A DNA stretch of 64,000 bases from Capitulum mitella. Lineage: Eukaryota > Arthropoda > Thecostraca > Pollicipedomorpha > Pollicipedidae. A model generated the notes under the pieces. The model was given only the letters and a program-made list of their open reading frames with translations, was not told where the DNA came from and made no database searches. Location of the stretch: positions 20,584,596 to 20,648,595 of the forward strand of contig CP099844.1 in assembly GCA_030062745.1 (NCBI GenBank), in the 5' to 3' direction. How positions within the stretch are numbered: the stretch's first letter is position 1; every line of letters begins with the position of its first letter. This document shows positions 391 to 62,902 of this stretch, piece by piece. Both the position numbers and the translations under genes were made by a program.

Positions 391-1365
391 ATGAGGCTCC
401 TTGTTCTTGTTGCGTTCGTTGCGTTTGCGAGTGGCGAGGTCTATTTTCAAGACAAATTCAGGGATGGAGGTGAGTTGATAATACTCTAGGTTGTGTGCGC
501 CGCACTTTGCGTTAGGTGTCTTGTTACTGGATATCGAGACCAGTTAACGTTAAGAAAAACTGTCCTGGACTAGTACCGTCTGGTCGTTGTAACCACTGTC
601 ATTTCTTGTGCATTGGCTTGCCACTTGTTATCCTATGGCATGTTAACTGCTGGAAAAAATGCTTGTTGATACAGGGACCATTTTGGGCAATCCTTTAGAA
701 GCGCACGCCGTAAACCAAGCACACTGGATGACACATATACGGCGCGCGTGGCAAAAGGAGACGTCAGCTGTTGCGAGGAACAACAACATTATGCACTGGA
801 GCTCCAGGTTGTAGATCACCTACTATTCGCTCTTGTTTTACACAGTAGGTTAGGTTAGGTTAGGTTAGGTAAGGTAAGGTAAGGTTAGGTTAGGTTAGGT
901 TAGCGAATAGTAGGTGATCCACGACCCTGGAGCTCCAGTGCATAATGTTGTTTCTCGCAACAGCTGACGTTTCCTTTTGCCTCGCGCGCCGTATATGTGT
1001 CATCCGGTGTGCTTAGTTTATGGCGCACGCTTCTAAAGGATTACCCTATTTTGCGTAGTGATTGGGGGGCGAGCCGAGGGCCACCCCTCCAGATGTGACT
1101 TTCATGGTGGATTTAGCCCACTTTAGACAGGTACATAGCCAGGATTTTGCAGGGGGGAAAATGTCAAATTTGGTCATATCTCATTGGCATATGGCAAAAT
1201 TCATAAGATCGAGTAGCAATGTTATGCAATTGGCCTCATATTAAACATACATGAAAAACAGGCAATGTGGATTTTGCATCATATATATTATCACTATTCC
1301 ATATACTTTTGAAACTGTTAAATATTGATGCTTAAATATACATATATATATGTATATATATATGC

Positions 1366-1405
<40 letters not shown>

Positions 1406-4400
1406 CATGCTTGGGTCAGGGGAGCACAGCCCATGGTCCCCTATAGTCTGTGTGTCTGACTAGGTCACTGGTCTGTTTCACATCACTTGCATAAAGGTTA
1501 TGACCAAGGTGGAGGAACTCCTCCACAGTTGGGAGGAGGGGGGAGGCAAGAAAACATTAGAGTCAATTATTTTTAGTCAGTGCCCAAAGCATCATTGTTA
1601 AATATTCAAAAAGTTGGTGGAAGCTGCCTCCCCCCACTTCCTGCATCCTTGAGCTATGATGTAGAAGGAAGATTAATGCAATGCGGAATGCTCAGGCTAC
1701 TCATGAAAACATACCATTTCAGACACCTAAAGATTGTAATTTCCAGGGGTTTTAGAACTCTGGGAAGTTAATCAACTTCAGGCAACATGTGACATCAACC
1801 TGATGGCAGCATGTAAAAAGAAATGGCAAAAGTCATGCTTGTGCACTTTGCCAGTCTTGACAAAAGTTCTGCAGCTGCTGGTAATTGCTATGTAAAAATA
1901 CCACAACAATACATTGTTAAGCTATAGCATGCAGTAACAAACATATATTTGCTGTCATGCTTTGAGATGCTATTATTGTGACCATTATGACTGTCCCATT
2001 GAAAGTAGAGATGAGATGAGATGAGATGAGAAGAGAAATAAGATAAGAGAGGAGAAAGTAAAGATAGAGAAAAGAAGAGCAGATCTCATCACTGTTCATT
2101 GAGTGATGTCTGTATACAAGAGGAAAGGCTTTTTGTAATGAAACCTACAGTCAGGGGTGTAGCCAAGGGTGGCCATGGGGACCATGCACCCCCCCCCCCC
2201 CTGAGCCAAGTGGTCTGTGCTACATATGTAGTGATTTTGCAGGAATATGTAATAGTGATCATATATATGTTGCAAAAGCAAAACATATGTCTTCTTGCAT
2301 GTTAAATGCAAGGCAAATTACATAAAACTGCTGCTTTTCTGATAAATTTCATCATATGCTAGGGGCATATGATAAGATTTGCCATTTCCCCCTGCCCCAG
2401 GGAAATCATGGCTATGTGCCTCCTTACATGGGCATAACTTTGTATGCCTTTGGTATAGAGCTTTTTGTACCAAAGAAAATTGTTGACAGAATTATGTACC
2501 AAAATCTTTTCATCATCAAAAAACTCATTGATATGTTTGCATCCTTTAGAAAACAAAGTCACATCAGCAGGAAAAATATTTCTGCACCAAAATTCTTCCC
2601 AATTCTACATGCATGACAACCTAGCAAATAGAAAGGAAATAAAGTAAAGAAATGAATTAAAATAAATGTTATGGTAATGGTGTGGCAGGCCCTCACCACA
2701 CAGCTCATTACCTGTGGCAGTGACACCACAGACTGGCTGTGAAATTACAGGATTGTAGACTTGCTTTCCACACTAATCCGCCATGGTAAAAGGTGGCATG
2801 GGAGAAGTTTGTATGCAAAAGATCCAAAAGATCATACGAGCAAGGTCATATGGCAAAAGATCGCGTCGCAAAAGTTCTTTCGCGTACGATGGTGTGGCAA
2901 AGTTGGTCATAAGGTAGTAATACTTAACCTAACCTGACCTGACCTAACCTAACCAAAGCTAACCCAACTCTTATAGCAAACCGATCACTACGCCTATGGC
3001 AAACCGACTTTGCTAATGCGATGTTTTCTTCTTGCGGTCTGTATCGATGCGATCTTTATCTCGCACAGTTTTTCCCATACGACCCATAGGCGGCGGAACG
3101 AGAGGGCACGGGGCATCGTGCCCCATCACTCTCCCTTAACGGGCGAAATTTAAGATTGACCCCATGGCATTGCATGGAAAGAAATGTCTTGGAAAGTAGC
3201 CGGTGCCCCCTTGCCGGAACACGATCCCCCCTACTGATGCGACTTTTTGCTTACGACCTTTTGTCACACGACCTTTTGCCATACCATCTTCTACTCGTTC
3301 ACTCCTGGCATGGACTGGGGTATTCCACCACTGTCCATTGACCACTGGCGGATCCGTGGAGCGAATTTCAGCTGTGCTCCCCTACCGTGATTAGGGGGGT
3401 CAAATAGAACCCTTCGAACCCACGGCAAGCGTCTTCAGCCCCCCCCCCCATTCGCTGATTCGCTGGCCTACCATCCATACCCAGCAAATATCCGATGAAC
3501 GGGGGGAGGGGCCTTTCACGCCTCAGTGTTCATCTTGAGAACTAATCGTTTGATTCACCTGAACGGGAATAGGGTTAAGATGACATTTAACACGCGTAGT
3601 GGAAGGGGGTTGCGCGCTAACGCGCACTGGAAGGGGGCGCGAAAGTACCCCCCCCCCGATCTCGGGAGCGGAAAGAGCTAGAGGCATGATAAGAAGATAG
3701 GGTAGGGCAATAAAGATTTACATAGCTTGGAAAAGATTTACATGGCCCTAAATCAATATCTTCAAGGTCAAGTAGGGTCAAAAAAGTCAACTTTGGACAC
3801 TTTTTGGCCTGTACAGGCCATTTCTTACGGCTTTCGGAACAAAATGGGAAAATGGTTGTTAAGAGCGTTAAAACGTAGAAAACGACAATTTCCAGTCATT
3901 TGGCGTCGTGATGTAGGATTTTGGGTCGAGATCATGCCAGGTCATTGACATATGTCATTTTTCTTCTTTTTGCAGATCAGATTTCTAGCAACACGGGATA
4001 TTGGTGTGCCCTGAGTTTAAATAAGGGCGCTAAACGTATCTTTTGGCGTATGTTCAGTGAAGATAGCTAACATCGGTACATTTGATCACTTCTAGCGTTC
4101 ACTAACTTCCGCGAGGTCAAAGGAAGTGAAGCGAGGCCATTAAGCTTGGATGAAGTTTGTGACCCAAAATAAGTTTTATGTCAGCTCATTGCGCTAAAGT
4201 TATTTCGTAACATTGAACCCAATTACTCGATTTGATTACTATAACACGCAAAACGCATATGTGTATAATATATATATATATATATTTATGTATTTAAATT
4301 CCTGGCCGGTTTTCGATTTTTTTGCGTCAATCGACGAGTTATTAAATTGCCATGTCATAAAGGAGCAGCGACCAGCTCCGACCCGTTCTGGAGATTTTCA

Positions 4401-20840: not shown

Positions 20841-23450
20841 TGGCCCAACATAAACAAAATGACATGATACGAGCAAGGCACTTGTGTTTTGCAAAAAAAA
20901 GCAAAAAGCACCACATTTATTGCATCGGTGCAGGATAACTAAGAGACCTGACAAATGTGATGCCACACTTATCATTGTGTTATCACATTTGCAGGCCAGA
21001 AATATCGGAGGTCAGTGATGGAACGACCTTGGCCTGATGTGCCGAGGGCGTGTTTACCAGTCATCCACTGGTTGACATATCTCAGGGTGAATGTCGTGCT
21101 GTTTGAGCGCTACCACGGGGAAAGCCTTTGCGGGTTATTTCGATCCGGCGTGGATGCATAATTAAGCAAGCATTTGGGATGGGGTGCTGGTTGGGAGGTT
21201 CTCCACTTCCGTTTTTTTGCGCGCAACGGAAATGCGGTTGATATGAGGCGTACCAGGTATGCAGCAGCCATAACTCAAACAATGTAGCATGGTCTTTGGA
21301 CTAGTGTTTGTGTTCTTTTGTGCAGTTCCATTGGATGGCGTTGGCCCCGGGTGGGGGGATGACCCTGTGGTTTGTTTAGCTCTTGAGCGCATTTGCACGG
21401 ACAAATTATGCATTAATGCATAGCAAATGTCGTAAGGAATCGAGTCGTATCAACATTGACGTTTAACACATCTCCAATGGGGAGCGTGCGATTTCATTGC
21501 TGAGATCCCTTCAGCGCTGACCGCGCTGCATGAACTTTTTTACATAACTACGTCGTAATTGGGGCGACAGTCACTGCTGTCTCTAGTCTAGTCTAGTCTA
21601 GTCTCTAGTACGGATGCGCCATTTTTTGCGTTCGCCAAGGTTTTTAAATCGAAACAGTGGAGACATTGCGTTGTTACTGAGCTGGCGTCCAGCCCACCCT
21701 GTCCGGAAATGCGGGCAGCGCAGTCGGATGTCTGTTTTGGTGCGTCGGCGTCATTTCGCTCTGCAGCCGGTGCAGAAACGCCTTCTGCGTGTTATGAAAC
21801 TAGAGCAGAAGAGCGCCCATACTCTGGTGGCCTTTTTTGTTATTTCTCCGTGTTAGGTACCACTTTGACGCCTTTTGTTGATATTTATCCATTGTATTTG
21901 CTACTTGAGCACCTTTTCCTTTTGTGAAGCGTTTTGTGTGAAAAGGATGCAGAGCATTTCCATTCGGGATGGCTTTGCATTTTTCTGTGGTGAAGGTGCA
22001 CTGCGAGAGCATGATGGTGATTTGTTTTGGATTTCTGACCATGCAAGAGCCTTATTCGTTGTGGGGTGACAAGCGAACCTTGGAATCAGTATTGCAGATG
22101 GGTGGTGGTGGAATTTGAACACCTTGACATAGGTGATGGTCCAAAAAAAATGGGGTGAATTTATTCTTGATCTGCTCACTTGTCGTCCTCACTCGTATGC
22201 ACTGCACTAATTCCCTGCTACTAACTCTTATTCAACATTAACTCGTATGTGTGCCAACCAAGCCAGAGTATGTGTAGGCCTGGTTGATTGTTTGGAAGTT
22301 GTTCATTACCCAAAGTTTGGAGCTGATTGTTGAAAAATAAATAAATGTTACTTATAAAATGCATATCTGTTTGTTTTCTACCATGTGCTGAAAGACTGAA
22401 GAGGTCCCCTCGTGCTTGCTTTTTGCGCACATTACATACATTTTTTCACACTGTCGCCTTTAATCGTTAACCCTGTGAAGAGGAGCTGTTTTTGCTGGCA
22501 TTTCTTTCTGTAAATAGGCATCAAATTCTTCTTTTGAATTTACGCAGACAAATTTAGGTAATGGTTGTTGGCCCGAGCATGGGCATTCAGGAGTGCTGAG
22601 CCTGGATTCACACCACTCCCGTCAGCCGTTTAACGGGCGCAGTAAACGCAGCCGCACTTTACGGGTGCGACACGAGAGATGAGAGTGATTGTTGACTTCC
22701 GTCTGACGCCGGAAGGTTAAGATTTTATTTTTTACCTACGTCAGAAAATCAGTACAAGCAAACATTGTTTTTCTTTTTCTGTTAGTTTCCTCTTTCTCTC
22801 AGTCAGGATTCGTCATCGATACCTCTGAAATACAGGCATGCGTTATAGCTATGTATTCCGTGGGTGTTGGCAGGCTTAGATCGCAGGTGAAGGACTCCTC
22901 ATTTTTATTGGACGTGCTGATAGGTAACAGAGTTACAACATAGGTCCATTGAAATGCGACACGTAAACTTCAACTGCAACAGCATCTGTCATCGGCCGTA
23001 AACATCAAACAGATAACGCGAACAAAACAAAGCCAGCTTGTGTGCACTAATATGATCACCAGTTCATTTGCACGGATGAAGGTAGCTTGTCCATCTACTT
23101 TGCATTGCCGAGTAAAATATGGGTATGATCTCAGCGCCATCCGGACGACTAACAGTGCATCTTTGAAATGAGCCTCTCAATCTCCACTTGCAAAAGGAAC
23201 GCGCAAGGAACGCCGCCAGAGGGATCTCGTTGAGAGAATTGTCGACGAGTGTCGGCCGCTGCCGGTAACTCTGGAGGAAAGCCACGCAACCGGTCCTGAA
23301 CAGACAGCGCAGGTCGTATGTGAGTTTTGAACAGTTCCGTTACAGAGCTGGCGACAAACATGTCCCGAAATTCAGCATTTTGTACCCGTAGTTGGGGTCT
23401 AGGGTTTGGAGTCTGAACAGCCCATTGTATGAAACAGTAACCGGTAACGG
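20841..23450. other. Intergenic DNA; TCTAG microsatellite
   Basis: CpG density returns to normal. A short TCTAG pentamer run lies at about 21,588-21,612. Open frames in the region are short and match nothing I know. No RNA gene seen. Confidence 0.45.
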
Positions 23451-25665
23451 GACAAAAAGTTAAAACCAAGACATCAAACGACAAAAAGTCAATTGGCAAA
23501 ATTTTGAAGCGATGAAAGTGAAATGGAAAAAGGGCAAAAACCAATGAGTCAAAACGACAAAAAGTCGAAAGACTAAAAGTTAAATGCAAAGAGTCAAGAA
23601 TAAAAAGCCAAAAGGATAAAAGTCAAAGACGCAGTAAGTGGAAAGGACCAAGGGACAAGTCAGAAGTAGAAACGTCAAATGCAAAAAATCAAATAGGCAT
23701 AAGCCCAAAAGCCAAAAAAGATTAAAGCCACATGGATAAAAATCAAAAAGGCAGTAAGTCTAAATGGCCAAAAGGCAAAGGAATAAAAATTAAAAGCCTT
23801 AAATCAAAAGCAACAGAAAAACAAGCAAAAAGTCAAAAGGGATAAAAATGAAACAGACACAAAGCCAAAAGAAGTAAAAGTCACGGGGACAGAAGTCCGA
23901 AGGATGAAAATGAAATGTAAAATGTCGAAAACTCAGACGTCCAAAATCGATAAAAAATGGGCAAAAAGTTGAATTCATACTGAGATAGGGGAGATAAGTC
24001 ATGTTGCGCACTGTTCAAAAATGCGCCCGCCAACCGCTCCAAACCTCTTGATGATCACAAGGTGTGACGATTTTTTGCGAATTGCGGCGCTCCTGAATCC
24101 TTGTTTTTCCAGGCCTGATGCTGCTGGGATATTAGTTGTATTCATCTGTGAGCGATTTCTAAAATAGTTGATCTTCTTCACTGCGCCAAGCCGCTTCTGG
24201 CGTGCACCACGCCAGCAATGTATGAAATACGTTAGGATATTGCACCTTATTTAATTGGCTGATGATATTCCTTAAACATTTTCAAACACACATCAACGCT
24301 CTAGGATAATCTCACGAGTTCCATTTGCAACATACCTCAGTTACTGAATGTTCACAAATGTGAGTATTAGCCATGTCTTTCTTTGGGGGGGGGACAAATG
24401 GCTATTTGACCCCTCTAACCGTGGTTGGGGGCATGGCTGAGATGGTCCCCTGGATCCGCCAGTGAAGAGTGGGGTAAAATAAGGCGTGCGGTGAGATGAA
24501 CCGCCCCCGTCTTCTCGGTTCCTATGAGATCACAAGACCCAACCTGACCCTTTCGGCCCACTGTCGTGGGTCGACTGGCCACAAGTGGATATTTTTTTCG
24601 CGATTAGAAAGACAGTTAACCTATCTACAGTTTTACCCCGATGGAGTCCAAATTTGGGGATTCAAACCCCATGTTAAGAAGTACAAAACTGGGGCCACCT
24701 AGTTGCGCTGACCTGATATGGGCTCAGAAAGGCCGTTAAACATTAGGGGCCAAGCAAATTTTGACCTTTGATTTCTCAACGCGTACCCCATCCACACGGA
24801 AATTTCCTCCGGTATTGCACCTTGTAGCCTAACGCATCCATGGCCGGCATAATGGTTTTCTTTTGTTTGGGGGGGGAGGCAGTTCAAACTATGGAAGGGT
24901 GACTTGGTGACCCAGATATCACCAAAAGGGCAAGGAATCAAATAACAAAAGATTAAAAGTGACAACAGTAACTTCTGCCCATTTTTGCTTCAGCACCTGG
25001 TAGCGACATGAGTGGGAAGCCGTTTGATATGATTGCCTGTCCGTGGAAAGAGGTTTGCGGAACCGAGGTAAAACTGTATGACTGACAAGGTCAAAAAACA
25101 AAAAGTCGAAAGTTGCGAAATCAAAATCCTTTTCAAATCCTTTGACTCTGCCGGCCTTAAATCCTCGGGCTCTTGCCCCATGGCTTCGCGATCAGTGGTC
25201 CTTAAGCCCTTTGAAGCTTGGCCCGTTTGGACTCGTGGTTTTTTAAATCTTGCCCGTCTGACATTTTTAATTTAGCTTTTTGTTCATCCACATTTTTCGA
25301 CTTTGTTTGGCCTTTTTACGCTTCATTTTCAATCTTTTGGCTTCTATCCCGTCGACTTTTTACTCTTCTGATTAACTGCTATATGGCCTTTATCCTTTTT
25401 GATTTTTTACATTTGACTTTTACTTTGTTGACCTTTATCCCTTTCACTTTTAGTTCTTTTGGCTTAGTGAATTTTTTATTTTTATCCATTTCATTTTTAT
25501 CCCTTTTGACTTTTTGCATTTGACTGGTATGCTTTTGGCTTTTTGCCATTTGACTTCTGTCCTTTTGACTTTTAGCGTTTTCACTTTTCGCATTTGATTT
25601 TTTATCCCTTTTGGCTTTTTGTCATTTCACTTTTTGCTTGTTAAGTTTTTGTCCAGGAACCGTAT
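23451..25665. repeat. Two inverted minisatellite arrays flanking 1.3 kb
   Basis: The left array (about 23,451-23,975) is built of purine-rich units such as GGCAAAAAGTCAAAAGGATAAAAGTC. The right array (about 25,253-25,665) is the inverse, e.g. GACTTTTTGCATTTGACTTTT. The outer ends also match in inverse (GGGACAAAAAGTT against AAGTTTTTGTCC). The enclosed DNA has no recognisable gene and includes a dispersed repeat at 24,390-24,465. It resembles a long foldback element; unlike the others it has no TTAGG core. Confidence 0.7.
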
Positions 25666-39600: not shown

Positions 39601-42600
39601 CGTCCGGGGTCGCTCCGCCGCTGGTTCAGCCGGTCTCGGCAGGACCGCACCACCTGGCCCGGAGGTGTCCGCATGGCGCAGCCGGCCCTCCTGACTTTGT
39701 CTCTGTTGACTTCGAGGGTTGCTCACTCGGGTGCCACTGGTCTTCGGGTGTTATCCTTTTCCGTCTACATCATCGCTGACTGGACCCATTTCGACTTCCG
39801 TAATGTCAACTCATTCAGTGCGTTGGGCACGGTCCGTTTTCCCCGGCTCGTGGGGGCGTTCGGCCTCACCGTCTCTGCTGGTTGCGCGGCGTTGCTGACC
39901 CGGTCTCTGGGCCGGGCTCCCGCGGCGCGGCCTGGACCTTGGACCCGGCGGCGGCCGGCGGCGGCGCCCGGTGCCGATCGATGGCCGGTGGCCGCCGCCG
40001 GAGGCGCCGTGCGTGCGCGACCGGCGGTCCGCGGCCGAGCCATTCCCGGCCGACACAGCCGTCGGCCGACTCCCGTCTGTCTGTCCCCGCCCTCGCTTGT
40101 CTCCGGCAGGCCTCCCCCCGTCTGTCTTCAGGAGGTTCCCCTTGTCTGTCCCGGTAAGCCTCCCCTTTCTGTCTTCGGAAGGCCTCCCCCCGTCTGTCTC
40201 CAGGAGGTTCTCCCTGTCTGTCCCGGTAAGCCTTCCCTTCTGTCTCCGGCAGGCCTCCCCCCGTCTGTCTCCAGGAGGTTCCCCTTGTCTGTTCCGGTAA
40301 GCCTCCCTTCTGTGTTCGGAAGGCCTCCCCCCGTCTGTCTCCAGGAGGTTCTCCCTGTCTGTCCCGGTAAGCCTTCCTTCGCTCGGAAGGCCTCCCCTGT
40401 CTCCGGGCCCCCGTCTCCGAATGGGCTCCCTTGGCCGTGTCCGGAAGCCGTCCCAGTCTTTCCCCGGAGGCCTCTTCCGGGAACCGTCCTGCCGCCTACT
40501 CCAACTTTCCCCGGCCAGCGATGTCCAGTTCTCGTCCACTTTGGCTCGTCCGAGTCATTTGTATCATATCTTGCTATTATTACGAAATTTAGGCTGTACG
40601 TAAGGTATGTACGCATAGCGCCAGTGGATCGGCCAAAATCAAAAAAGCAACATTTAGACCTTTCTTAGCGAACTCCGTCTGTATCTCGAACAGATGAAGC
40701 ACATGTGGCCGGATGTCGGGTACAGCGCCGTCCGTTTGTCCGCCGGAACGTGCCGCGATCGGGGGTCACTCGCCGGACGGGCGGAGGGAGTTTTTGCCGA
40801 CCGCTGGCGGCCCGGCTCGGCCGGTCTGGCCATCCCGCGCGCCGCGTCAATACCGGACTCCGGCGCCGGAAGTGGTCGACGACGTCCTGCGTGGCGCGGC
40901 GCCCGGCAGACGGCTGTCTCTGTGCCGGCGGGACGCGGGCGGCCGCCGCCGGTCCTGCCGTCGTTCCCGGGGATGGCAGATTGGCGACAGGGCCGGCCTC
41001 TGGCGGCCCGGCCCGCCTGGCCGGCCGGCCGCCGCCCGCCCCGCCATCAGGGCCCGGGGGACGGAAGGGATTGGTGGCAGTGTCCACTGGCCGGACAGTC
41101 CTGCTGGGCTCTCCGCCTGCGGTTGGTCCGAGCAGCAGGAAGCGTAGTTCTCGCCACGAGGGCGCGAGTGCACGTGTGTCGCCTACTTACCGGATTGTGA
41201 CAATGCTTGCGTGTCATTGCACAAGCGCAATGGAAACGTTCCTGCTCTCCCGACTTTGGACTCGTGCTGGAGCTCATGACGACGGGGCTTGGCGGAGGCG
41301 CTAGCGCCTTGAGCCGTAACCGACCCGGGTTAATGGACGAGCTGCGGCCGCCCTGTCGGCCGTCTTTACATGTCTTGGCTGACGCCAACGCCCCGAGCTC
41401 CCGTGCCCCGCCACCACTAGGCCGTCAATCGGCAGTCTTGTGTCGTGGCTGCGCCGAGGTCACCGACGCGGGAGAGCTCAGGAGACTGCTGTGGGTCGGG
41501 CCTTTTATGTTTCACCGCGTGGTTCTGGGAGAGAACAGCGTGCATTTTTTCCGCTTGGTCCGCTGGCCGTCGGATCCGTCCGGCGTGATGAATGCTTCTT
41601 TCGCCAAGAGACAGTCCGACATCGTTATTCTCCGGCTGGTATGGCAGGCCGGTCAAGACACCATTGGTCCTCCATTGTTGTCCTGTGTTGCGTATCTCGA
41701 GTGGCGGGTCAGGAGGGCGCAGGACGGCGGGCATCTGCATGGCGCGGCCATTAGTGGCGCCGTGGCCGGCTGGGGACGGCCAGCGGAGATTTCTAGCGAA
41801 CAAGACGCCTTAACCGTCAGAGGCGGCTGTGCTGTGACCTGCCGCGCCGCTTTGGCTGCAACCACCGCAGATCGCTGACGGGGGAGGGAGGGAGGGGCGT
41901 GTCGTGACCTGCCAGTCAGTGTGCCGGGGTCGGGAGGCAATGCCGGCGATCGGTGTGACGTTAGGCGTTGGCGCTGAGTCGATCTGTCCGGCCCGCTGAC
42001 GCGCCGTCGGCCGGCGCCGAGAGCACCATCAGCGCGCCAGACCGAGGCGATATTGCGCCGCGTGGCGTGCGGCCGGCGTCCGGCCCGCCGCCGCCGCCGC
42101 CGCCGCCGCTGACGCCGGAGCAAGAGCGTCCGACCGACCGAACAGGGCGGCGTCTGAGCCCCGACCGAACAGGACGACTTCTTAGCCCCGGGCGAACAAA
42201 TCTGCGTCTGAGTCCCGACTAGAGCTGAGGATTCGAATTCGCAGGATTCGACTAGATTTGAATCTTGGGAATCCTCGAATCCTGAAAACGAGGATTCAAA
42301 CCTCGAAAATCAAGACCCGAATCTGAAAAAAACACATTGAAATGCTGGAAACTGCTGTTTTAATATGTCAATATTTGCACTGAAATATGCTCTATACTCG
42401 GATTTTCTTCAGATAAACTAAACGTAATGTGTGATAAACTAAATGTATTTGTCGGTGATGCATCGGATGGAGTCGCCCGTTCCGCGTTTTATTACATTGA
42501 ATTAATTATTACCGGACTGAGCTGCTGTACGTACTGCTTTTACTCTGCCAGCACCATTTTGCGGGTTTGCTGTTTCACTGGTTTTCTGTCAAAGGTTTCG

Positions 42601-43961
42601 AGATTTCGATGCGAAGACTCGAATTTATTCGAACCTGTTGGAATCTCGAGTGCCAGTCCGAATCCGAATCCATCCGTCCTAAGATTCCAAAATGCATGCG
42701 AAGCCTTCGCTATAGCCCCGACCGAACAAAGCAACGTTTGAACCCGGATCGAACAACGTAGTGTCTGAAACCCGACGAACAGGGGAACGTCCGAACCCAG
42801 AACATTGCGACATCTCAGCTCCGACCGAACTATGCAACATCCGAGCCTTTGGTGGGCAAGGTAATGGCTGAAGCCTTGCCGAATAAGGGGCGTCGGAGCC
42901 CCAACCGAAGAGGGTGACGTCTGAAGCCCCGCCGAACAAGGTAATGTCTGAGCTCCCTCTGAACAAGGCAGCCTCTGAGCTCTGATCGAACAAGACAACA
43001 TTTGTGTTCCGACTGAACACGGCAACGTCTGAAGTCTGGCCGAACAAGGCGGCGTCTCAGCCGCGACCCACGTCGTCGGCTGCCGTCAGGACAGACACGA
43101 TAAAGCGAATAGACCTCTTGGCCCCGGTCCTGGTGCCGTTGCTGACGGGTGTGGCGAACCTGTCATGCCCCGGCACGGCGGGCGTCGGCCCCGGCTGCGG
43201 AGACACGTTTCTGGCTCTGCGCCGCTGCCTGTGGCGCCTGTGGCGCGCCGGGGCCGTTTGCGGCGCGCCGGCGGCGATGTTTGTCAGCTGGATGAGAAAT
43301 GGACCCGTCGTGAATAAACGGAACTGGGCGCTGCTGCGGCCGCCGACTGCTGCCGCTTGTTTGGAAGAGCCGGCCGGCCACTGATATGCGGCGAAACTGG
43401 CGCCCGGAGGTACAACGGCGGGCCTGCGAGAGCGAGCCGGATGCAGCGGCGAAGTTGGCAGCAGTGGGAGACAAAGTTGGCTGGTGATGATGAAGTTGGA
43501 TGGGAGCCGGAGATGTTTTGCTCGCTCGCGGGTGCGTCTGTTCCGTTTGATTTCGATGTTCGTAGTGGGATATGCTTACTTGTGAGGTTGAGCTTCTTTG
43601 GTACGAAAAAAGTGGAAACGCACATGAGCGGAAAACGTGATCTCAAGCGCACTGTGGGCGAGTGTTTTGGGCCAGGGGTCTGTACTTTTCGTAGTAATAG
43701 AACAAAGGTGGGACAGAATTATTAAACAGAATAACGAAACAAGAGAAAAGACTGGATTATAACAAAACAAAGGCAACAGTGCCAGGGGTGTCAGTTCCTG
43801 TAAATCGTTGGGTGGGCCGAGCCGTCGGCCCGACGACCTAACCTTCCCCAAATGTAGGTTTCGCAACGGATTTAGCCCACGTTATTTTGATCAGTGGATA
43901 TTTTTGAGTGTTTCGTTACAGAATTTTTGAGTTTTTCAAATAAAAATAGTGCATATCCCAT

Positions 43962-44012
<51 letters not shown>

Positions 44013-44685
44013 CCCGAATAAGTTGTTTTGATAGGGACGGTTACGGGCTGATTGAAATGAATCATTTTTGAACAAACAAAGATAAGGCCAATCGACGCAT
44101 GCTTCGTTTCTCAGATCACCTCCTTCCAAATATTGTGTCAAATTTCCGCTTAGGAAATCAAAATGCCCTAAGGCCAAACCGTTTCGCACATGCTTCAACA
44201 TCAAATTTAACATGGCCTGCAACGGGCCAAACCTATTTCCTAAATGCACATGCTAGTGCATAACAGATGCTTCGACGTATGTTAGTCCTTATCACAGGAC
44301 CAGCCAGCAAACTGAACGAAGGAAGAACCAACCGATTATATGAGTCGTACCACAAGAAAATGTTTAAATTTGCCAGTCAAAAAAGCGACAGAGCATTGCA
44401 GAACCCCATGGATCTTGATGAACGCAGTCGCGTGGAAAGTTGGACAGTGCGCATGGGCACTGTTCGGGGGTGTCGATTTGTATTCTTTCGAGGGGGCTCT
44501 GGCCCACCCAATGTTGATTTGGGTCCGTCCAATGTTGATTTGGGCCTGTCCAATGTTTTCTGCCGGTTTTAAAGGGAACTGGGCAAAAATAACGGAAGAA
44601 ACTGCCGCCGTAGCTAAAAAATCAGCAGAAAGTAAAGAACAAGGCATAAAGTAATGTATCTATCTACCTTTCTTATCTTACCTAG

Positions 44686-44736
<51 letters not shown>

Positions 44737-44817
44737 GAAGATGGAAAGGTAGATAGATACATTATCTTATCTTATCTTACACATACATCTTATCTAACCT
44801 AGGAAGATATATATATA

Positions 44818-44861
<44 letters not shown>

Positions 44862-47800
44862 GTAGGATGGAAAGGTAGATAGATACATTACTTTATGCCT
44901 TGTTCTTTACTTTTTGCTGATTTTTTTAGCTACGGCGGCAGTTTCTTCCGTTATTTTTGCCCAGTTCCCTTTAAAACCGGCAGAAAACATTGGACAGGCC
45001 CAAATCAACATTGGACGGACCCAAATCAACATTGGGTGGGCCAGAGCCCCCTCGAAAGAATACAAATCAACACCCCCGAACAGTGCCCATGCGCACTGTC
45101 CAACTTTCCACGCGACTGCGTTCATCAAGATCCATCAATGCTCTGTCGCTTTTTTGACTGGCAAATTTAAACATTTTCTTGTGGTACGACTCATATAATC
45201 GGTTGGTTCTTCCTTCGTTCAGTTTGCTGGCTGGTCCTGTGATAAGGACTAACATACGTCGAAGCATCTGTTATGCACTAGAATGTGCATTTAGGAAATA
45301 GGTTTGGCCCGTTGCAGGCCATGTTAAATTTGATGTTGAAGCATGTGCGAAACGATTTGGCCTTAGGGCATTTTGATTTCCTAAGCGGAAATTTGACACA
45401 ATATTTGGAAGGAGGTGATCTGAGAAACGAAGCATGCGTCGATTGGCCTTATCTTTGTTTGTTCAAAAATGATTCATTTCAATCAGCCCGTAACCGTCCC
45501 TATCAAAACAACTTATTAGGGTGTCGCCAGTGACGTCACGGTCCTCGACAAATTGGAGACCGGCGTGAGCCGGCCGTCAGCTGGCTAGCCGATTATGACA
45601 GCTATGTTTACTTACGATGAGCTTCGACGGGGAACGGGATTGGGCATTATCTGCTTGTATGTCGTATTTGATTGTATCAGTAGATGCAGTTTTATGTTGT
45701 CGTGGATCCGTTTAGGATGGCTTTGGCGTGGGGTTAAACAATGACAGAGCTTTGAGGACCGGGACAGTTGCAAGCATGTTGCAGGAGTGGGAGGCCTTGC
45801 CAGGCGATCGAGCCTTGGCAGGATCCTGTATAGGGCCTTGGGCAAGATTGGTGTGGGGTAGACCGCACGTAGCTGTCAGCCGTAGACTAGGCTATTGTTT
45901 CATATGTTTGGCTTCTCTTGTATTTAACATGCTTTATGTCGAAATAATGCAGAAGTGCGCGAGTTAACACGACTGTCTTACAGACTTAACACGACTGTCC
46001 GCATACTGGCGGCATATCGCCTTTGACGTCACGCCAGACGCTACTTTGGCTGGACGGTCTTACCTGAACTTTCAGGACCTTGATGTCAACAACCCAGTGT
46101 AGGTGAATAAATTTGCCCACATTTTTGTCAGTAGACTATGTATTTTTTATGTATCCGCTTCACAAATGCGTAAAGCAAGCGTGCACATAACAGAGTAATG
46201 TGAGATACAACAGCCGTGGATAAAGCTATAGAAAAAAGGTAGGCCGTGACTGAAGCAGAGTTCGACGGCTGTCAGGCCCAGGCTACTGTGACGACCTATT
46301 CAGTTTTGTCTGTCACCGTGAGCATCGTCAACAAACCGAATTTCTGAGGTATTGAGGTAAAAGGCTAGCTGCAAATATAAGCCAATCACCAGACAGGAAT
46401 TTTGCGCGCAAAAGCAGATCGAGCTGGGCGCTGATTGGTACAGGTACCTTACGTCAGCTGGGGAGCACATTTTATCGATTGGGCCATTGGCGTAGCCAGG
46501 AATTTTTTCGGGTGGGTCCTAGGGGGTGAGGGGCCCCTTGAACACTACAGGGGGCCAGGGGCGCAGCCAGGATTTTCTAAAGGAGGGGAGGGCGGAGCTC
46601 AGTGTGAACTGAAATCGTACGAAAACCGTCTGCCGGGAAGACGATGTGCGATGGTTTTCGCAAAAACTGCGGGCCTAAGGGGAAGAGCCCGGGCCCCCCG
46701 CCCCTTTGCTGCGCCTGTGCGGGGGCCCCATAGCCAGGGGCGCTGTTTTGTATAAATGAATTGGGGGAGGGGGTAGATGAAGTGGGCCTCTCAGCCTAAC
46801 CTCTTCCCAAATGTGAGTTTCTCAACTTCTGAGCGGATTTAGGGCACTTTGTTTTGACTGGCCGACGTTATCCCATGGCAGGAGGATCTTTCCTGGTTGG
46901 CGGCTCCTTTGCAGAGGAGCATCCTTTCCTGTGCTGGCCTTTTGGTAGGTGCATGCCGGGGCACTCACCCTTTCCGGCCAAGGGCCCCCGCTATCCGCCA
47001 GAGGGGACTTAGCCTGGGGTCTTGGGGCCCTTTGCAAAGGAGTGGGTTGTGTTTTCCGGCCAGGAGGGCTCCATTAGGCCAATGTCAGGGGAGCCCCTTG
47101 ATGGGCCAAAAAATTTCGGGGGGGTTCCAGGGCCCCTGGGGCCCCCTGGCTACGCTACTGGATCAGCCGTTTGTTTTGAGTGGAAAAGCAGTGCAGAGTA
47201 ACTGGCACGTGATGCCGAATCCCCGGTATTCCAGTATTGCGGGTATGTCCTAAGTAGTTATTGCAGATATTTTTGTTATATGACGTGTGTTAAGGTTTCA
47301 TGCCCACTGTGGGTGGTTTTTGAGGTCTTCGGGCAGAAGTTCATCGGACTAAAGTTTGTAGGACAGTAGTTCGTCGGGTACTAGTTCTTAAGGACAAAAG
47401 TTCGTTTAGGCCAAAAGTTCGTCTCCCGAAAATTCGTGTGGACAAAGTTCGTCAAGGACGAAAGTTCGTCTAGGGCAAAAGTTCGTCACGCCAAAGTTCG
47501 TATGGGACAAAAGTTCGTCTAGGACAAAAGTCCGTACTGGACGTAAGTTCGTCTAGGACAAGAGCTCGTCCAGGACAAAAGTTCGTCTCGCAGAAATTCA
47601 TTTCGAACAAAAGTTCGTTTGGGACAGAAGTTCAAGAAGGGTAAAAGGTTAGGTTGGGTTACGTTAGGTCAGGTTATTATTTTAGGTCCGTTTCTTTTCC
47701 GATACGAGCCTTAAGTTTACGAATGCTTGGTTACGAACTTTCATCCTTACGAACGTTTTCCCTTACGAACCTTTCCCTACGATCCTTTTGCATGCGAACC

Positions 47801-50800
47801 TTTTGCAGTACAAACATTTTCCATCAGCAAGACGAATTTGTCCTAGACGAACTTTTGCCGCTGACGAACTCTCCTTCTAGACGAACTTCTGCATGACGGA
47901 CTTTCGTCCCAGGCAAAGTTTTGCCCCGCACGAGTTTTTGTCCTAGACGAACTTCTGCGAGAAGAACTTTTGTCCCAGACGAACTTTTGTCCTAGACGAA
48001 CTTTTGCCCTAGACGAACTTTTGCCCTAGACGAACTTTTGACCTCGACGAACTTTTGCCCTTGATGAACTTTGGCCCTAGACGAACCTTTTTACGGCAAT
48101 CTTGCACGACGAACTTTTGTCCTGAACGAACTTTTGTCCTAGACAAACTTTTACACGGCGAACTTCAGCACGACGAGCTTTTGTCCGACGAACTTAAGTC
48201 CGACAAACTTTTTTTTGCACGGCGAGCTTTTCTACGATACGCACTTTTGCCTTAAAATCGGTTTTTAAAGTTGACAGTGAAAAGCTTATGTGTAAGCGAG
48301 CTCGGACTGTGATCTGTGCTTGTGTTTTTCTTTGTATTTGAAGGTAGGATGCAGGTTAGATGGTACGTACTTATGAAAATTGTTTTGAACCAGTGTTTCT
48401 ATTATACTGAAAAATATGTTTGGCAGTGGTATCACAATTAAGATAAAACCGATCAAGTATGGGGTTGTGCGTTGATTGTGGCTGATTGTGTGTAGCGTAC
48501 CAAGAACCGCCATATTATTTTTATTTTTTTGGGGGCTCTGTTCTCAAAACATGGCATTACCAATGAGATCTTGTGGGTGCTAGGGCAGTATTCAGCGGTG
48601 CTAATTGGCACTAGGTGCGTCTTACCTCGTGTCAGGCGGCCTGTGCAGACCCCCGGACAAAAGTGAGGCAGTACTGGCGTGATCACAGCCACAGAAAAGA
48701 AAAGACTGTCAGTTCCTTTGCCCTCATTATGCTGCGGCATTATGATATTTGAACGTCATGAATTTCACATTTCACCGTCATCAAAAATTAGTCACCTAAA
48801 TTTACATTCAGTAGACATTTAGTCAACATTTGCAGAGCTCTGACACAATATACCATGCCTTGATGTGGAGACTGTTTGAATGCCATGAATGTTATGGAAA
48901 ATAGTCGTTTTCTTGGTGCTCTGTACCCTGACAGACCCTCACACTACTGGAAACTGATGTGGTGCAATATCAGTATTACCTAATCTAAATTGTTTTTTGA
49001 ACTGACCTGGTATAGCAGGGACGTAGAAGGGGGGTCATGGGGGCCGTGCTCCTCCCTGAGCCAGGCAGTCTGCACTAGATATATGAGTTTGCAGGAATAC
49101 GGGATAGTGATCATATATATGTTGCAAAAGCAAACATACGTTTTCCTTTGCGCCAAATATGAAATCAGTTGGATAAAATGGCTGTTTTTGCCATAAATTT
49201 TCGGATATGCCATATCACAAAATCAAATATGTGGCACCCTCCTGAGGAAGATCGTGGCTACGTGCCTGTACGCAGTGATAGGCGCCTTACGTGGTCACGT
49301 GGTCTTGTGATGAATCACCATTTGAGTTCAGCCATAGAAATACGGCTGAACTTTTATATCGCAGTACTGGTCGCCGATGCGAGTGCTGGTGTGGGATGGC
49401 CTTATGGGTACATCCGTTCAACAGCAGGACCAAACGGAGCACGAATTTGCCATCAATTTTACAAAATGAGACGTTTGACCCGACCTAACGAAACCCCTAA
49501 CTGACCCACCAACAAAAACTGCACACCAATCGTAGATGTCGTTCGCAGCAACACGCCGATTTTTTTCGCGGCGCTCTATGACTCCTGGTTTTGCGGAGAT
49601 GAAACAAAAAAAAAAAAAAAACGCAAAACGTGCTTGCTGTAACGGCAGTCCAAAGCCAACGTGCTCCCCAGACGGCGTCACGCAGAGCGCATCTTCAAAG
49701 TCGAGGGACCGCTCGCAACAGCCGCACGTGCTTTCTTCCATGGATCTCAGGATTCTGAGCTATATACATTTTTGGTGACGGCAGTAGCCTAGTAGAACCT
49801 GGGGGGGGGGGGTATGCTGTATCTCATGCAATTGTGCCGTTATTTCTGGACGATGTGGACGTTCCATTAGTTTCAGATGCTAAAAGCTACAGATGCCTGT
49901 GATGATGTCGCAGTGTTCGGCACACCAAACTTAGTGCCTGTTAAACGCTTCCAGGCATTACAATATGGTTTGGTTGTAAATGTTATGAAATAGCGCTAAG
50001 AAATATCGTAAAATACGGATATGGTTGACTTTAGAGGCAGAGTTTCTCCAGATATTTGCCGTTGCTAGTCGGAAGTAAAGCTCTGAGCGAACGGCTTATG
50101 GTAATATTTTCGCCCGAAGCCGGCAATTAAATCTGTTCACCTCGTCTTTTTATCGGAGGCACCTCGGGCTTACCGGCCCTCGGCGCCTCCGATAAAACTC
50201 CGGGTCCGTGCGGGAACATATAGTCCTTGTCCATGACTGTCATGAAGAGAACACCAGACAGAGGTGTAATTGGTGCCGCTGTAAGACCGATCTCATCTGC
50301 GACGATTTTCAAATCCATTGTCCGCGCCGGCGAGACTCGGAATCGACGCAGGCTTATTAGCAGAAAGCAGACGCATCTTCGCTCGCGTCGTGGCGCGATT
50401 TCTCTGTTAGAACGCGACAAGATAGTGTTTGGTCCGTTGTATGGCGTTATTTCATCACCGTTTTGAACACTGCCTGAAGTAGTCCGTTTAGGTATGATCG
50501 AAAACTGACGGTTGAAAGAGCGGCTCGACCGGACCTAGCCTGGGCAAACACGTTTTGAAGACGTTCTGCGCTGTTACCCAGGGCTCACGCAGCCTTGCCG
50601 TTTGGCTTCACCACGTCATAGAGGGATCGATTCTGGTTTAATCTATCGTGTTATATCACTGTGTGCCAACAGTGCTGTGACGCAAGCGTCACGCACCAGC
50701 CAGTGCACCTGGGATCGTCTCGTAGAGGACTTCAGTTTCGTGAGTCCTTCAGTATGAAATTTAACATTCAGAACTGAGACACATTCGACGACTGTTGTGA

Positions 50801-53800: not shown

Positions 53801-56800
53801 CAGTGGGGCGGGAACTCCTCTTCAGTTTGGGGACAAAGAAGCATTTTAGGTCAGTTCTTTCTAGCATCTCCCTTAGGGTCAGTGTTAGATTTCAAAAGAG
53901 CTGGGGACCGCTGCCCATGCCCTCCCCCTCCGCAGGAGCTTTTGGCTCCTGGTGTCCGTTGCGGGATGCGGCGTGCCATTAGCGAGCGCCGCCCGAGGGA
54001 TCTCTGCAGGGGGGCAACGAGCGGTTGGCATGGGAGCGGAGGCGGCAGCGGCATCCGAGATCGGCGTCCCCGGACGTTGGTATCCGAGATCGGCGTCCCC
54101 GGACGTTGGTATCCGAGATTGGCGTCCCCGTACGTTGGTATCCGAGACTGGCGTCCCCGGGCGTTAGTATCTGAGACTGGCGTCCCCGGACGTTTGTATC
54201 CGAGATTGGCGTCCTCGGACGTTGGTATCGGAGACTGGCGTCCCCGTACGTTTGTATCCGAGATTGGCGTCCTCGGACGTTGGTATCGGAGACTGGCGTC
54301 CCCGTACGTTGGTATCCGAGACTGGCGTCCCCGGGCGTTGGTATCCGAGATTGGCGTCCTCGGACGTTGGTATCGGAGACTGGCGTCCCCGTACGTTGGT
54401 ATCGGAGACTGGCGTCCCCGGACGTTTGTATCCGAGATTGGCGTCCTCGGACGTTGGTATCGGAGACTGGCGTCCCCGGACGTTGGTATCCGGGATTAGC
54501 GTCCCCGGGCGTTGGTATCCGAGACTGGCGTCCCCGGACGAGCTGTGTCCGGCGCTGATGGAGACGCATCGATTAGCTGTCTGCTGACTGGCCAGGTTAC
54601 CCAGCAGGAGGCCGGGCTCGATAATCCAGGGTCGTCCGACGGCCGTCTCTGCGGACCTTTGGGAAACCGGACCACCGGAAAATCGGACTGCCGGGGGTAC
54701 AAGGCCGCCGAGGAGCCCGGACCACCCGGGGAGTGGACCACCGGGGAAGCCGGACCACCGGGGAGAGCAGACCGCCGGAGAGACCGGACCACCGGGGAGA
54801 CTGAGCCACCGTAAGACCAAACCACCGGGAAGACGGGACCACCGGGGGACCGGACCATCGGGGGACCGGACCACCGATAGAATGGATCGCCGGGAGACTG
54901 AAGAATGAACCGCAGGGAGATCGGAAAGTGGGACACCGAGAGACCGGAGACCGGACCATCGGGGACTGGAGATCCAGAAGTTGGGTCACTGGGAGACAGG
55001 ACACCGAACACTGGAGACCGGAATACGGGAGGGCGGGACCAACGGGGGACTGGAGACCGGACCACTGATAAAATGGAGATCCCGGGAGACCACGGGAGAC
55101 CACCAGTAGACTAGAGACTAGACCACCTGAAACCGGACCACCGGGCGACTGGACCACCAGGACACCGGAAACCTTTCTGCCGGGAGATCGGAAGCGGGAA
55201 CACCGTGAGACCGGAGACTGGACCACCGGGAGACCAGAGATCGGACCACTGGAGGAAGGGGAACCGGATACCGGAATACCGAGAGGGAGAGGGAGGGGGA
55301 GGGGGCAGAGTCCAGTGTAACCTACAAGAAACACTGTGATTTTAGAGTTCCGTCGTTTTCTGCGAGTGATTCACTTTGGTTGTCTTGGGTTTCTGTTGCA
55401 TGCTGTGAAACTTTTTGGTGGGAGTTCCACGAGACCCTAATGACCAAGTGCCGCTCACCGCACTTTACCCAGTCCAAACCAGTAAAATGCCGAGAAAGAA
55501 CTTTCTCTGCAGTGACATATCGGCCACATCAATGACAGCTACAAAGCTTTAGAAGGGAGTAATTGGGCTTTCCTGTTTTTCTGAACGCCCAGAGTATTGT
55601 TTGGGTGACGTACACCGCTGTATCGTCGATGCTGGGCGGGTTCTTTGGACATGATTGCAAGAAGTGCGCACGGCACGGTCTCCAGGGGTGTGAGCACTAC
55701 TGCTGAGAACAGTGGACTCGCACAGTGAGCGTGATCGTATGTTCTGTGGTGCCTGGTGTGATCGTATGTTCTGTGGTGCCTGGTGGCGCGGGCTTTCTGT
55801 GCGTCCTTCAGTGTGGTTGTGCGGACGTCGGCCCGCTCTTGCCGAGCGGTGTGGCTTCGCGGAGGACCAGAGTTTTGTCTGAGGGCAATTGCCCATTTTT
55901 CCCGTTGCTTTTTGTTCTGTTTTGTTTCTCGTTTCTACATTTTAGCCTTTTCACTCACACAACTGTGTATGAAAATCCTCGGTACTGTACGGGTACCCTG
56001 ATCTGAAAAAACTGACAGAACTTTTTCGGAACAGCTGTCGGAAAGCTCTGCTAACCTCAGTTGCATGTATTCATTCCATTTCATCGCGGCTCCTGTCAGT
56101 CTTTGATTAATGACTTTCGGCAGGTTTTAACGCAATGAACCGACTCATCTTGATTCCATTTATTGAACTCGGTAACATGTGTGACTTGTTACAGTCGTTA
56201 CTGTTCTTACCGTTGAATATGCCGTCATATTTGCCGATTGCGTCTCATTCTCAGACATCCAGGAGTTTTACGAGCTGACCCTGCTCGATGCGTCCAAGTC
56301 TGTGCAGCAGAAGACGAAGGAGACGATGCAGGTGGCCAACAAGTGGGAGAGCTCGTCCCCAATCGGCCCGTGCATCATCGCTGGCCAGGTCAGCTCGGAT
56401 GACAGGAGTGTCCGCCTGTCGTGTGCGTGACGCCTGTCCATCCCCGTCACGCGAGTAGCTCCTGCTTGACCGACGAGATGATGCAGTGATTGCTGCTGTC
56501 GTCGAATTGAGCAGGACGGAAAGGAGGAAAACATGGGCACGTCTTCTGCTGTGCGTGCCCTCTGTCGTCAGGACTGGAAAGCTTTAGTTGAGCTTCCTTT
56601 CGCTGACGGCGCCCGGCAGTCTTCTCGGGATTTAGACAAGCATATTGTCTGCGCACTGGATTTCTCGCTGTTGGGCCACGCTCTGTTCTTCCTTTGCTGA
56701 GCCGATTTATGTTGAACTGGTCCTCACAAGATGCCGCGGTGATGTTCTCAGCCAGAAACCGGCACGCTCCGAACGTTACCTGCAGTTGCAAAGTTCAGTG

Positions 56801-62204: not shown

Positions 62205-62690
62205 CCCTCTCCGGCTGGCGTCCCTTCCCTGCTCCGGGGTCTCGACAGCGTCCGGGGTCCGACTCCGGCTGGCGTCCCTCCCCTGCTCCGGGGTCTCGAC
62301 AGGGTCTGGGTTCCCTGTCCGGCTGGCTTCCCTTCCCTGCTCCGGGGTCTGGACAGCGTCCGGGGTCCGACTCCGGCTGGCGTCCCTCCCCTGCTCTGGG
62401 GTCTCGACAGGGTCTGGGGTCCCTGTCCGGCTGGCGTCCCTCCCCTGCTCCGGGGTCTGGACAGCGTCCGGGGTCCGACTCCGGCTGGCGTCCCTCCCCT
62501 GCTCCGGGGTCTCGACAGGGTCTGGGGTCCCTGTCCGGCTGGCGTCCCTCCCCTGCTCCGGGGTCCCTCTCCGACTGGCGTCCCTTCCCCGCTCCGGTGT
62601 CTCGGCAGCGTCTCTGGTCCCTCTCCGACTGGCGTCCCTCCCCTGTTATGGGGTCTCGGCAGCGTCTCCGGTCCCTCTCCGACCGGCGCC
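62205..62690. repeat. 54-bp minisatellite, about nine copies
   Basis: Unit TCCGGCTGGCGTCCCTCCCC plus TGCTCCGGGGTCTCGACAGGGTCTGGGGTCCCTG, with two subtypes that mostly alternate, giving a 108-base higher-order period. Since 54 is divisible by three, five of the six frames stay open for 225-336 codons. A 39-base deletion copy occurs at about 62,548-62,573. Not a protein repeat in my reading. Confidence 0.9.
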
Positions 62691-62902
62691 CTCCCCGGCA
62701 CCGGCTCCGTCTCACGGCAGCGTTTGGGATCCCTCTCCGTCTGGTGGCCGTCCCCAGTCCCGAGGCACCACCTGGCCGGACTCGGACGATCAATGGGCCA
62801 CGTGGGCGGCGGCCGGCATTGATTGGGTGGCCGGGCACGCGGCGGCGGCCAGACGCCGGACACACGTGCTCGCGGCCCGGCCGCCGGCGCAGCGACGGCG
62901 TC

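Follow-up and report, generated by a model that had tools for sequence, protein, structure and literature searches.

Why does a telomere-like sequence stand between the two arms of an inverted repeat? The question is raised by element E3, which lies in a 64,000-nucleotide stretch of Capitulum mitella DNA (the window; contig CP099844.1, here C6, positions 20,584,596-20,648,595). The source genome is assembled as 477 Mb in 16 contigs, and 16 or 17 chromosomes have been suggested in Pollicipes pollicipes (passages of PMC8917513). The motif of interest, TTAGG, is the usual telomere motif of arthropods (as stated in parts of PMC3124438). A preliminary description read E3 as 17-bp units running into a TTAGG-like centre and emerging as their exact complement. 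Together with two other elements of the window, E1 and E2, it was proposed to form an undescribed class of repeat in which the plan, and not the sequence, is conserved. Our results indicate that E3 is very probably a copy of a DNA transposon of the foldback type, non-coding and non-autonomous, whose telomere-like core was inherited. It belongs to at least eight families with an internal TTAGG tract, a GG start, mostly a CC end and target-site duplications of 8 to 9 bp.

The architecture of E3 was examined with Tandem Repeats Finder (TRF) and by alignment of its arms. From left to right, the element consists of ~17-bp units, a decayed (TTAGG)n core, a domain of ~16-bp units and inverted 17-bp units (Table 1). 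TRF found 14.8 copies of AGGACAAAAGTTCGTCT at 47,391-47,633 and 19.2 copies of TTTGCCCTAGACGAACT at 47,837-48,152, as well as the ~16-bp unit variant right of the core at 47,731-47,803. When the left arm was aligned with the reverse-complemented right arm, 231 of 309 columns matched, with a score of 144, compared with a maximum of 28 in 100 shuffles. The core had a (TTAGG)n score of 49, and eight Markov-resampled windows gave a single match with a score of 22. These results confirmed that inverted ~17-bp units meet at a TTAGG-like core. However, the arms are 75% complementary rather than exact complements, and the core is off-centre, at 0.37 of the element length. The limits, previously placed at 47,330-48,258, were redrawn to 47,324-48,259, with GGTTTTTGA and GGTTTTTAA just outside. 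No stop-to-stop open reading frame of 130 amino acids or more overlapped E3, an Rfam scan of the window gave zero matches at the gathering threshold, and no matches to the arm units of E3 and E2 were found in viral contigs.

Relatives of E3 were found on all 16 contigs. Forty places were scored out of 971 candidates, and the 39 other than E3 itself showed 73-80% identity, some of them being partial. In an alignment of six family members, five of which had been found through TTAGG, the TTAGG core occupied one place. Four full-length matches picked without a TTAGG criterion (loci L158 to L161) all had a decayed core at this same place, as judged by eye. The TTAGG core belongs to the element and is propagated along with it. 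The same four loci were read because duplications in the family of E3 were weak in the test of 47 copies described below. A duplication was found in L160 (10/10) and L161 (9/9), in L159 with the ends shifted by 1-3 nt (10/10) and, weakly, in L158 with shifts (8/9). The 3' end in this family is AATC or AACC (AATA in L161), not always CC. For E1, 40 of 588 candidates were scored, and the other 39 were 85-96% identical to it. Because the copies of E1 are more alike than those of E3, its family looks younger. All but one of the 40 scored E1 places, a partial copy, span 341-409 bp, a variation that probably reflects the length of the core.

The association of TTAGG tracts with inverted repeats was next examined in the genome. 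A search pattern matching the beginning of perfect (TTAGG)4 tracts had 255 places (133 + 122), compared with 2 for the reversed control. Seventy loci were sampled, comprising the places listed on contigs C1, C2 and C3 except one on C3; C4 and unlisted places lay outside the sample. After removal of L096 and L115, which duplicate L095 and L114, 68 loci were kept. Flanks were counted as inverted at a score of at least 25 within 600 bp. Inverted flanks were found at 24 of the 68 tracts, far above the background, which was 15 of 223 for off-tract points of these loci and 15 of 198 for points of the window. They were present at 20 of 29 tracts under 100 bp and at 4 of 39 tracts of at least 100 bp, the remaining 35 long tracts having none within 600 bp. 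A control with mis-paired flanks (35/210 at a score of at least 20) was unusable as a null, since the flanks of different tracts are homologous. The tracts listed on C1 to C3 include none at a contig end, the first ones being 1.3, 5.1 and 0.1 Mb from the starts and the last ones more than 1 Mb from the ends; telomeres may be missing from the assembly.

On the basis of homology in both flanks, eight repeat families were recognised, which hold 58 of the 68 tracts: F0 (20 tracts), F1 (8), F2 (7), F3, which is the family of E1 (5), F4, which is that of E3 (5), F5 (5), F6 (5) and F7 (3). Among the ten tracts outside the families, L101 shares flanks with F0, and L144 and L148 share one flank with F1. 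The 24 inverted cases were all 22 loci of F2, F3, F4 and F5, plus L103 and the F1 member L150. No member of F0, F6 or F7 had inverted flanks. Long inverted arms are therefore not a general feature: four families have them and four do not, and inverted arms around TTAGG are one form within a broader group. The common feature of the tracts is that they belong to dispersed elements whose ends are alike and which make target duplications of 8 to 9 bp. Independent placement of inverted arrays and TTAGG, which the preliminary description had set against its own proposal, is seen only in part: another element of the window, E4, is inverted without TTAGG and most long tracts lack inverted flanks, yet such flanks occur at tracts above background.

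To define element ends, family borders of homology were drawn and typed by hand as GG... patterns. The ends, which include GGTTTTCGGGCAGAAG, GGTAATCCTT and GGCTAAAGGTAAG, have GG at 5' and mostly CC at 3'. Both ends could be located in 47 copies, E1 and E3 included, and 31 of these had a duplication of 8-9 bp at the threshold chosen, compared with 9 of 2,162 mis-paired flanks. These 47 exclude the 14 of 61 rows in which an end was not found; L151 of F2 was not entered, and L101 and L144 were added to F0 and F1. By family, the counts were 13/19 (F0), 2/4 (F1), 2/3 (F2), 5/6 (F3), 1/4 (F4), 4/5 (F5), 3/3 (F6) and 1/3 (F7). The duplicated sequences include GAGGACGAG, CAGAAGTTA, GAAAAACAG and GGCAGACTG in F3, CAACATTG, GCCAAAAT, GCTTTTTG and CCATGGAG in F5 and GCTTCAGTG in F6. 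A scan for exact 8-bp duplications made without the family ends was not decisive (GG ends at 17 of 71 loci, AA at 19 and AT at 17).

Sequence shared between families was found next to the tract. A left module of ~60-75 bp is common to F1, F2, F6 and F7, whose arms are unrelated; the best between-family pairs were 77-89% identical over 55-95 bp. In an alignment of 20 module sequences, between-family identity was 0.67-0.78 in six successive 10-column bins, after 0-0.36 and then 0.48 in the bins upstream, although selection of these sequences by a 31-nt pattern (at most 6 changes) and a nearby TTAGG inflates the identity within that stretch. The module pattern had 349 places at up to 2 mismatches, and the reversed control 0. 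When six exact module places not picked for TTAGG were inspected, five had a TTAGG array 24-29 nt further on, that of L167 being degenerate. On the right of the tract, the motif TTACTATTTTAGG (up to 3 mismatches) was present in 20/20 members of F0, 6/7 of F2 and 6/6 of F4, compared with 4/38 other tracts and 27/2,600 in a synthetic null. F0 and F7 have a common right flank, and the domain to the right of the core, together with arm sequence, is common to F4 and F2. The left module is not shared by F3 and F5, in which the right motif was found in 0 of 11 cases, and these two share with each other only a terminal GGYAATCCTT.

From these comparisons, the elements with TTAGG would form two or more lineages, in one of which different arms appear to have been exchanged around a single core in the manner of a mosaic. 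The view that only the plan is conserved is not supported, given the sequence shared by F4 and F2 and a GG.CAAAAG-like motif common to the units of E2, E3 and E4 (by eye, with partial counts). RNAalifold gave no convincing fold for the left module. In a permissive Rfam scan of L154, L140, L102 and L153, the 14 matches obtained were all below threshold and outside the module, and were taken as chance. The F2 cores of L094, L102, L127 and L130 are enclosed in a larger inverted element whose ends resemble GGTAATGGTTGAGCAGGCC, a nested or composite arrangement.

The family of E3 has long terminal inverted repeats built of subrepeats, a target duplication and dispersed, multiple copies, as foldback transposons do. 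The latter, including FB of Drosophila, TU of sea urchin, Galileo and Tetris, share long terminal inverted repeats of tandem subrepeats, a variable non-coding middle and duplications of 8-10 bp. Duplications of this size fit the Mutator-like element (MULE) superfamily, in which they are ~9 bp, and are also compatible with the hAT, P or Merlin superfamilies. Those of Tetris are 8-9 bp in complete copies and 9-10 bp in rearranged ones (passages of PMC4079207). E3 differs from the known foldback elements in having units of only 15-17 bp and a middle whose (TTAGG)n tract is kept through the family. The family of E1, with a length of ~360 bp, arms of ~145 bp and, for four of the six located copies, 9-bp duplications, resembles miniature inverted-repeat transposable elements (MITEs) with palindromic arms, but its loop consists of a TTAGG tract that varies in length. 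Mammalian interstitial telomeric sequences at double-strand breaks are likewise short intrachromosomal telomere-like tracts (parts of PMC2246262), whereas most tracts sampled here are at a fixed place in multi-copy families. In penaeid shrimp, (AACCT)n microsatellites make the arthropod telomere motif abundant within a crustacean genome, and the words "inverted", "foldback" and "palindrom" do not occur in the main text of PMC3124438. No description of TTAGG-cored inverted elements was found in open-access titles and abstract openings; subscription journals and repeat databases were outside this scope, and novelty is provisional. For the present, we consider that the kind, foldback/MITE-like DNA transposons, is already known and that the telomere-like core kept across families is new. 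The proposed plan fits four of the eight families; the families are united by the kind of element and partly by core sequence that they share.

Could the tracts have arrived independently, through palindrome centres that broke and were healed each time by telomerase or by captured telomeric DNA? E1 has the expected geometry, since the tract plus 14 nt splits an otherwise exact palindrome centre (CTATTCGCT / AGCGAATAG). Addition of telomeric repeats at breaks is on record (Nergadze 2007, sections of PMC2246262), and F3 and F5, being without the left module and right motif of the other families, make at least two acquisitions likely. However, independent insertion is expected to give unique flanks, and the 58 family tracts share both flanks with other copies; within aligned families, the tract is at one place. 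This explanation, which can account for origins but not for the present distribution, is a real though minor possibility. Slippage of an arm unit (AAAAGGTTCGT to AAAAGGTTAGG), unrelated to telomeres, would suit E3 and its relatives, in which the tract follows AAAAGG, also present in variant units. It is very unlikely as a source of the core, as the same tract is present in F0, F1, F3, F5, F6 and F7, whose arms have no homology to E3 units.

Two further explanations start from chromosome ends. Telomere loss and fold-back chromosome fusion would leave inverted subtelomeric arrays around a residual telomere, and in E3 inverted arrays do flank a one-directional TTAGG tract. Yet the inversion stops at ends less than 1 kb apart that carry target duplications, and relatives occur on all 16 contigs; such a relic, rejected on the target duplications, is extremely improbable. 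Elements that target TTAGG arrays are known in arthropods (passages of PMC10871703), among the candidates being TRAS/SART-like retrotransposons and telomere-inserting nimaviruses. Here, TTAGG is inside and not outside the element ends, and the flanking duplications are varied 8- to 9-mers. A telomere-targeting element was rejected for these reasons and is scarcely credible.

Several observations weigh against the reading of E3 as an inherited-core transposon. No transposase was linked to these ends, and 2 kb inside a long E4-type copy on C6 contained no Pfam domain. The families were selected on TTAGG, similar families may lack it, as that of E4 does, and one of the six exact module places (L165) is without TTAGG. 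Three of the four located members of the E3 family in the 47-copy test (L133, L125 and L091) show no duplication; the case for this family therefore rests on E3 and L158 to L161. The first duplication scan tried 45 x 45 positions, among which one mismatched 9-mer is not rare by chance, and the family ends used later were the hand-typed ones.

If E3 and its relatives are transposons of this kind, a candidate transposase encoded elsewhere would recognise the GG... ends and mobilise them in trans. Repeated arm units may act as extra binding sites, by analogy with Galileo and Tetris, for which this role of arm subrepeats has been proposed (passages of PMC4079207). The arms would expand and contract through tandem duplication, and families could swap them and retain the core. 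The tract may have been acquired by an ancestral element on one or a few occasions, by telomeric capture or by break repair at a palindrome centre, and would since have spread by transposition. A more far-reaching proposal, which we regard as doubtful, is that a single transposase system mobilises many families through the shared type of end and a core cassette (left module, (TTAGG)n and TTACTATTTTAGG). The tract would then be a working part, recruiting telomere proteins or telomerase or serving as a joint for the exchange of half-elements, and occurrence of the architecture in a second arthropod-like genome would make telomere-cored transposons a class recognisable as such.

The usual explanations for interstitial telomere-like repeats are chromosome fusion and the repair of breaks. 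Most of the tracts sampled here, at a fixed place in transposon families, look spread by transposition, which is a testable third source and cautions against reading TTAGG blocks in arthropod karyotypes as fusion scars. Whether a transposon benefits from carrying a telomere-binding tract is a further question that they raise. A core common to families with unrelated arms is, in addition, an example of modular transposon evolution.

A TTAGG-cored inverted element was also found in other sequence collections. Two contigs of one assembly, the Campylobacteraceae metagenome-assembled genome (MAG) DT_9, carry copies of one such element at L014 and L076, with arms GGTATAGTTAACAATTAGAGCATCGACTTATAG and a CCTAA tract. 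Their inverted scores were 51-53, and the shuffle maxima 23-33. The copy at L076 has an 8-bp duplication, GTAATTTT, by eye; no clear duplication was seen for that at L014. L014, L076 and L055, on whose contigs TTAGG tracts lie inside repeats, look like animal DNA contaminating a GTDB genome. In the viral and prokaryote collections, 61 of 75 tracts with exact TTAGG runs of at least 5 units were testable, and four were above all 100 shuffles: L008 (a phage contig), L062 and L056 (bacterial MAG loci) and L014. At positions 973-1,127 of L008, an IMG/VR contig, GAAGTGGTCAGA iterons are inverted on both sides of (TTAGG)8, upstream of a large open reading frame resembling a phage primase/helicase by eye. 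This site is possibly a replication origin of convergent appearance.

Table 1. Elements of the window, their parts and their target-site duplications.
Feature	Position	Strand	Sequence	Basis or remark
E3, very probable foldback-type non-autonomous transposon copy	47324..48259	+	5'-GGTCTTCGGGCAGAAG...CTTTTGCCTTAAAATC-3'	family alignment, located ends
E3 target-site duplication, left copy	47315..47323	+	GGTTTTTGA	8/9 match
E3 left arm, array of ~17-bp units	47329..47631	+	GGACAAAAGTTCGTCTA	TRF, arm alignment
E3 decayed (TTAGG)n core	47646..47687	+		(TTAGG)n score; place constant in relatives
E3 right inner domain, ~16-bp units	47688..47836	+	...CCGTT...TACGAACC	domain also in family F2
E3 right arm, inverted 17-bp unit array	47837..48250	-		TRF, arm alignment
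E3 target-site duplication, right copy	48260..48268	+	GGTTTTTAA	8/9 match
E1, MITE-like palindrome	686..1045	+	5'-GGCAATCC...GGATTACC-3'	core (TAGGT)n at 846-903
E1 duplication	678-685 and 1046-1053		CCATTTTG and CTATTTTG	7/8 match
E2, decayed array element	2801..3305	-		TTAGG core 2922-2968, minus strand
E2 duplication	2794-2801 and 3306-3313		TGGCATGG	overlaps first base of E2 as drawn
E4, ~15-bp unit arrays, inverted, enclosing ~1.3 kb of other sequence	23436..25661	+	GGCAAAAAGTCAAAT	without TTAGG core
E4 duplication	23427-23435 and 25662-25670		GTATGAAAC / GTATGAACC	8/9 match

The window is animal DNA, with two calreticulin stretches within 5,628-6,810, a G+C content of 0.496 and a CpG observed/expected ratio of 0.93. 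The three TTAGG tracts scoring at least 22 in it are the cores of E1, E2 and E3 (Table 1). Placed at random, three tracts fell within the five inverted elements in a fraction of 0.00064 of 200,000 trials, with element limits drawn post hoc. As to the three elements said to share one plan, all have tracts, and E1 (132 of 146 columns in the arm alignment) and E3 are clearly inverted. The arm alignment of E2 was barely above chance (score 21, shuffles up to 18), and E2 is counted as inverted mainly from its units, judged by eye; it probably contains a nested insert that interrupts it near 3,090-3,230. E4, with 311 of 467 columns matching between its arms, has a diverged family in the genome. E4-type arms in inverted orientation also occur far apart, at C1:2,748,291-2,756,246 and C6:23,875,371-23,880,115, and longer parental elements are a possible explanation of these pairs.

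Other repeats were also present in the window. A 97% palindrome at ~43,940-45,522 has arms of ~670 bp and an (AT)n centre without TTAGG, and no target duplication was found at its limits as drawn. Another repeat occurs in two copies of opposite orientation with 69% identity, at 1,116-1,325 and 2,224-2,433. Minisatellite arrays with periods of ~24 to ~140 bp are located at 15,209-15,614, 40,098-40,397, 54,053-54,540 and 62,205-62,755.

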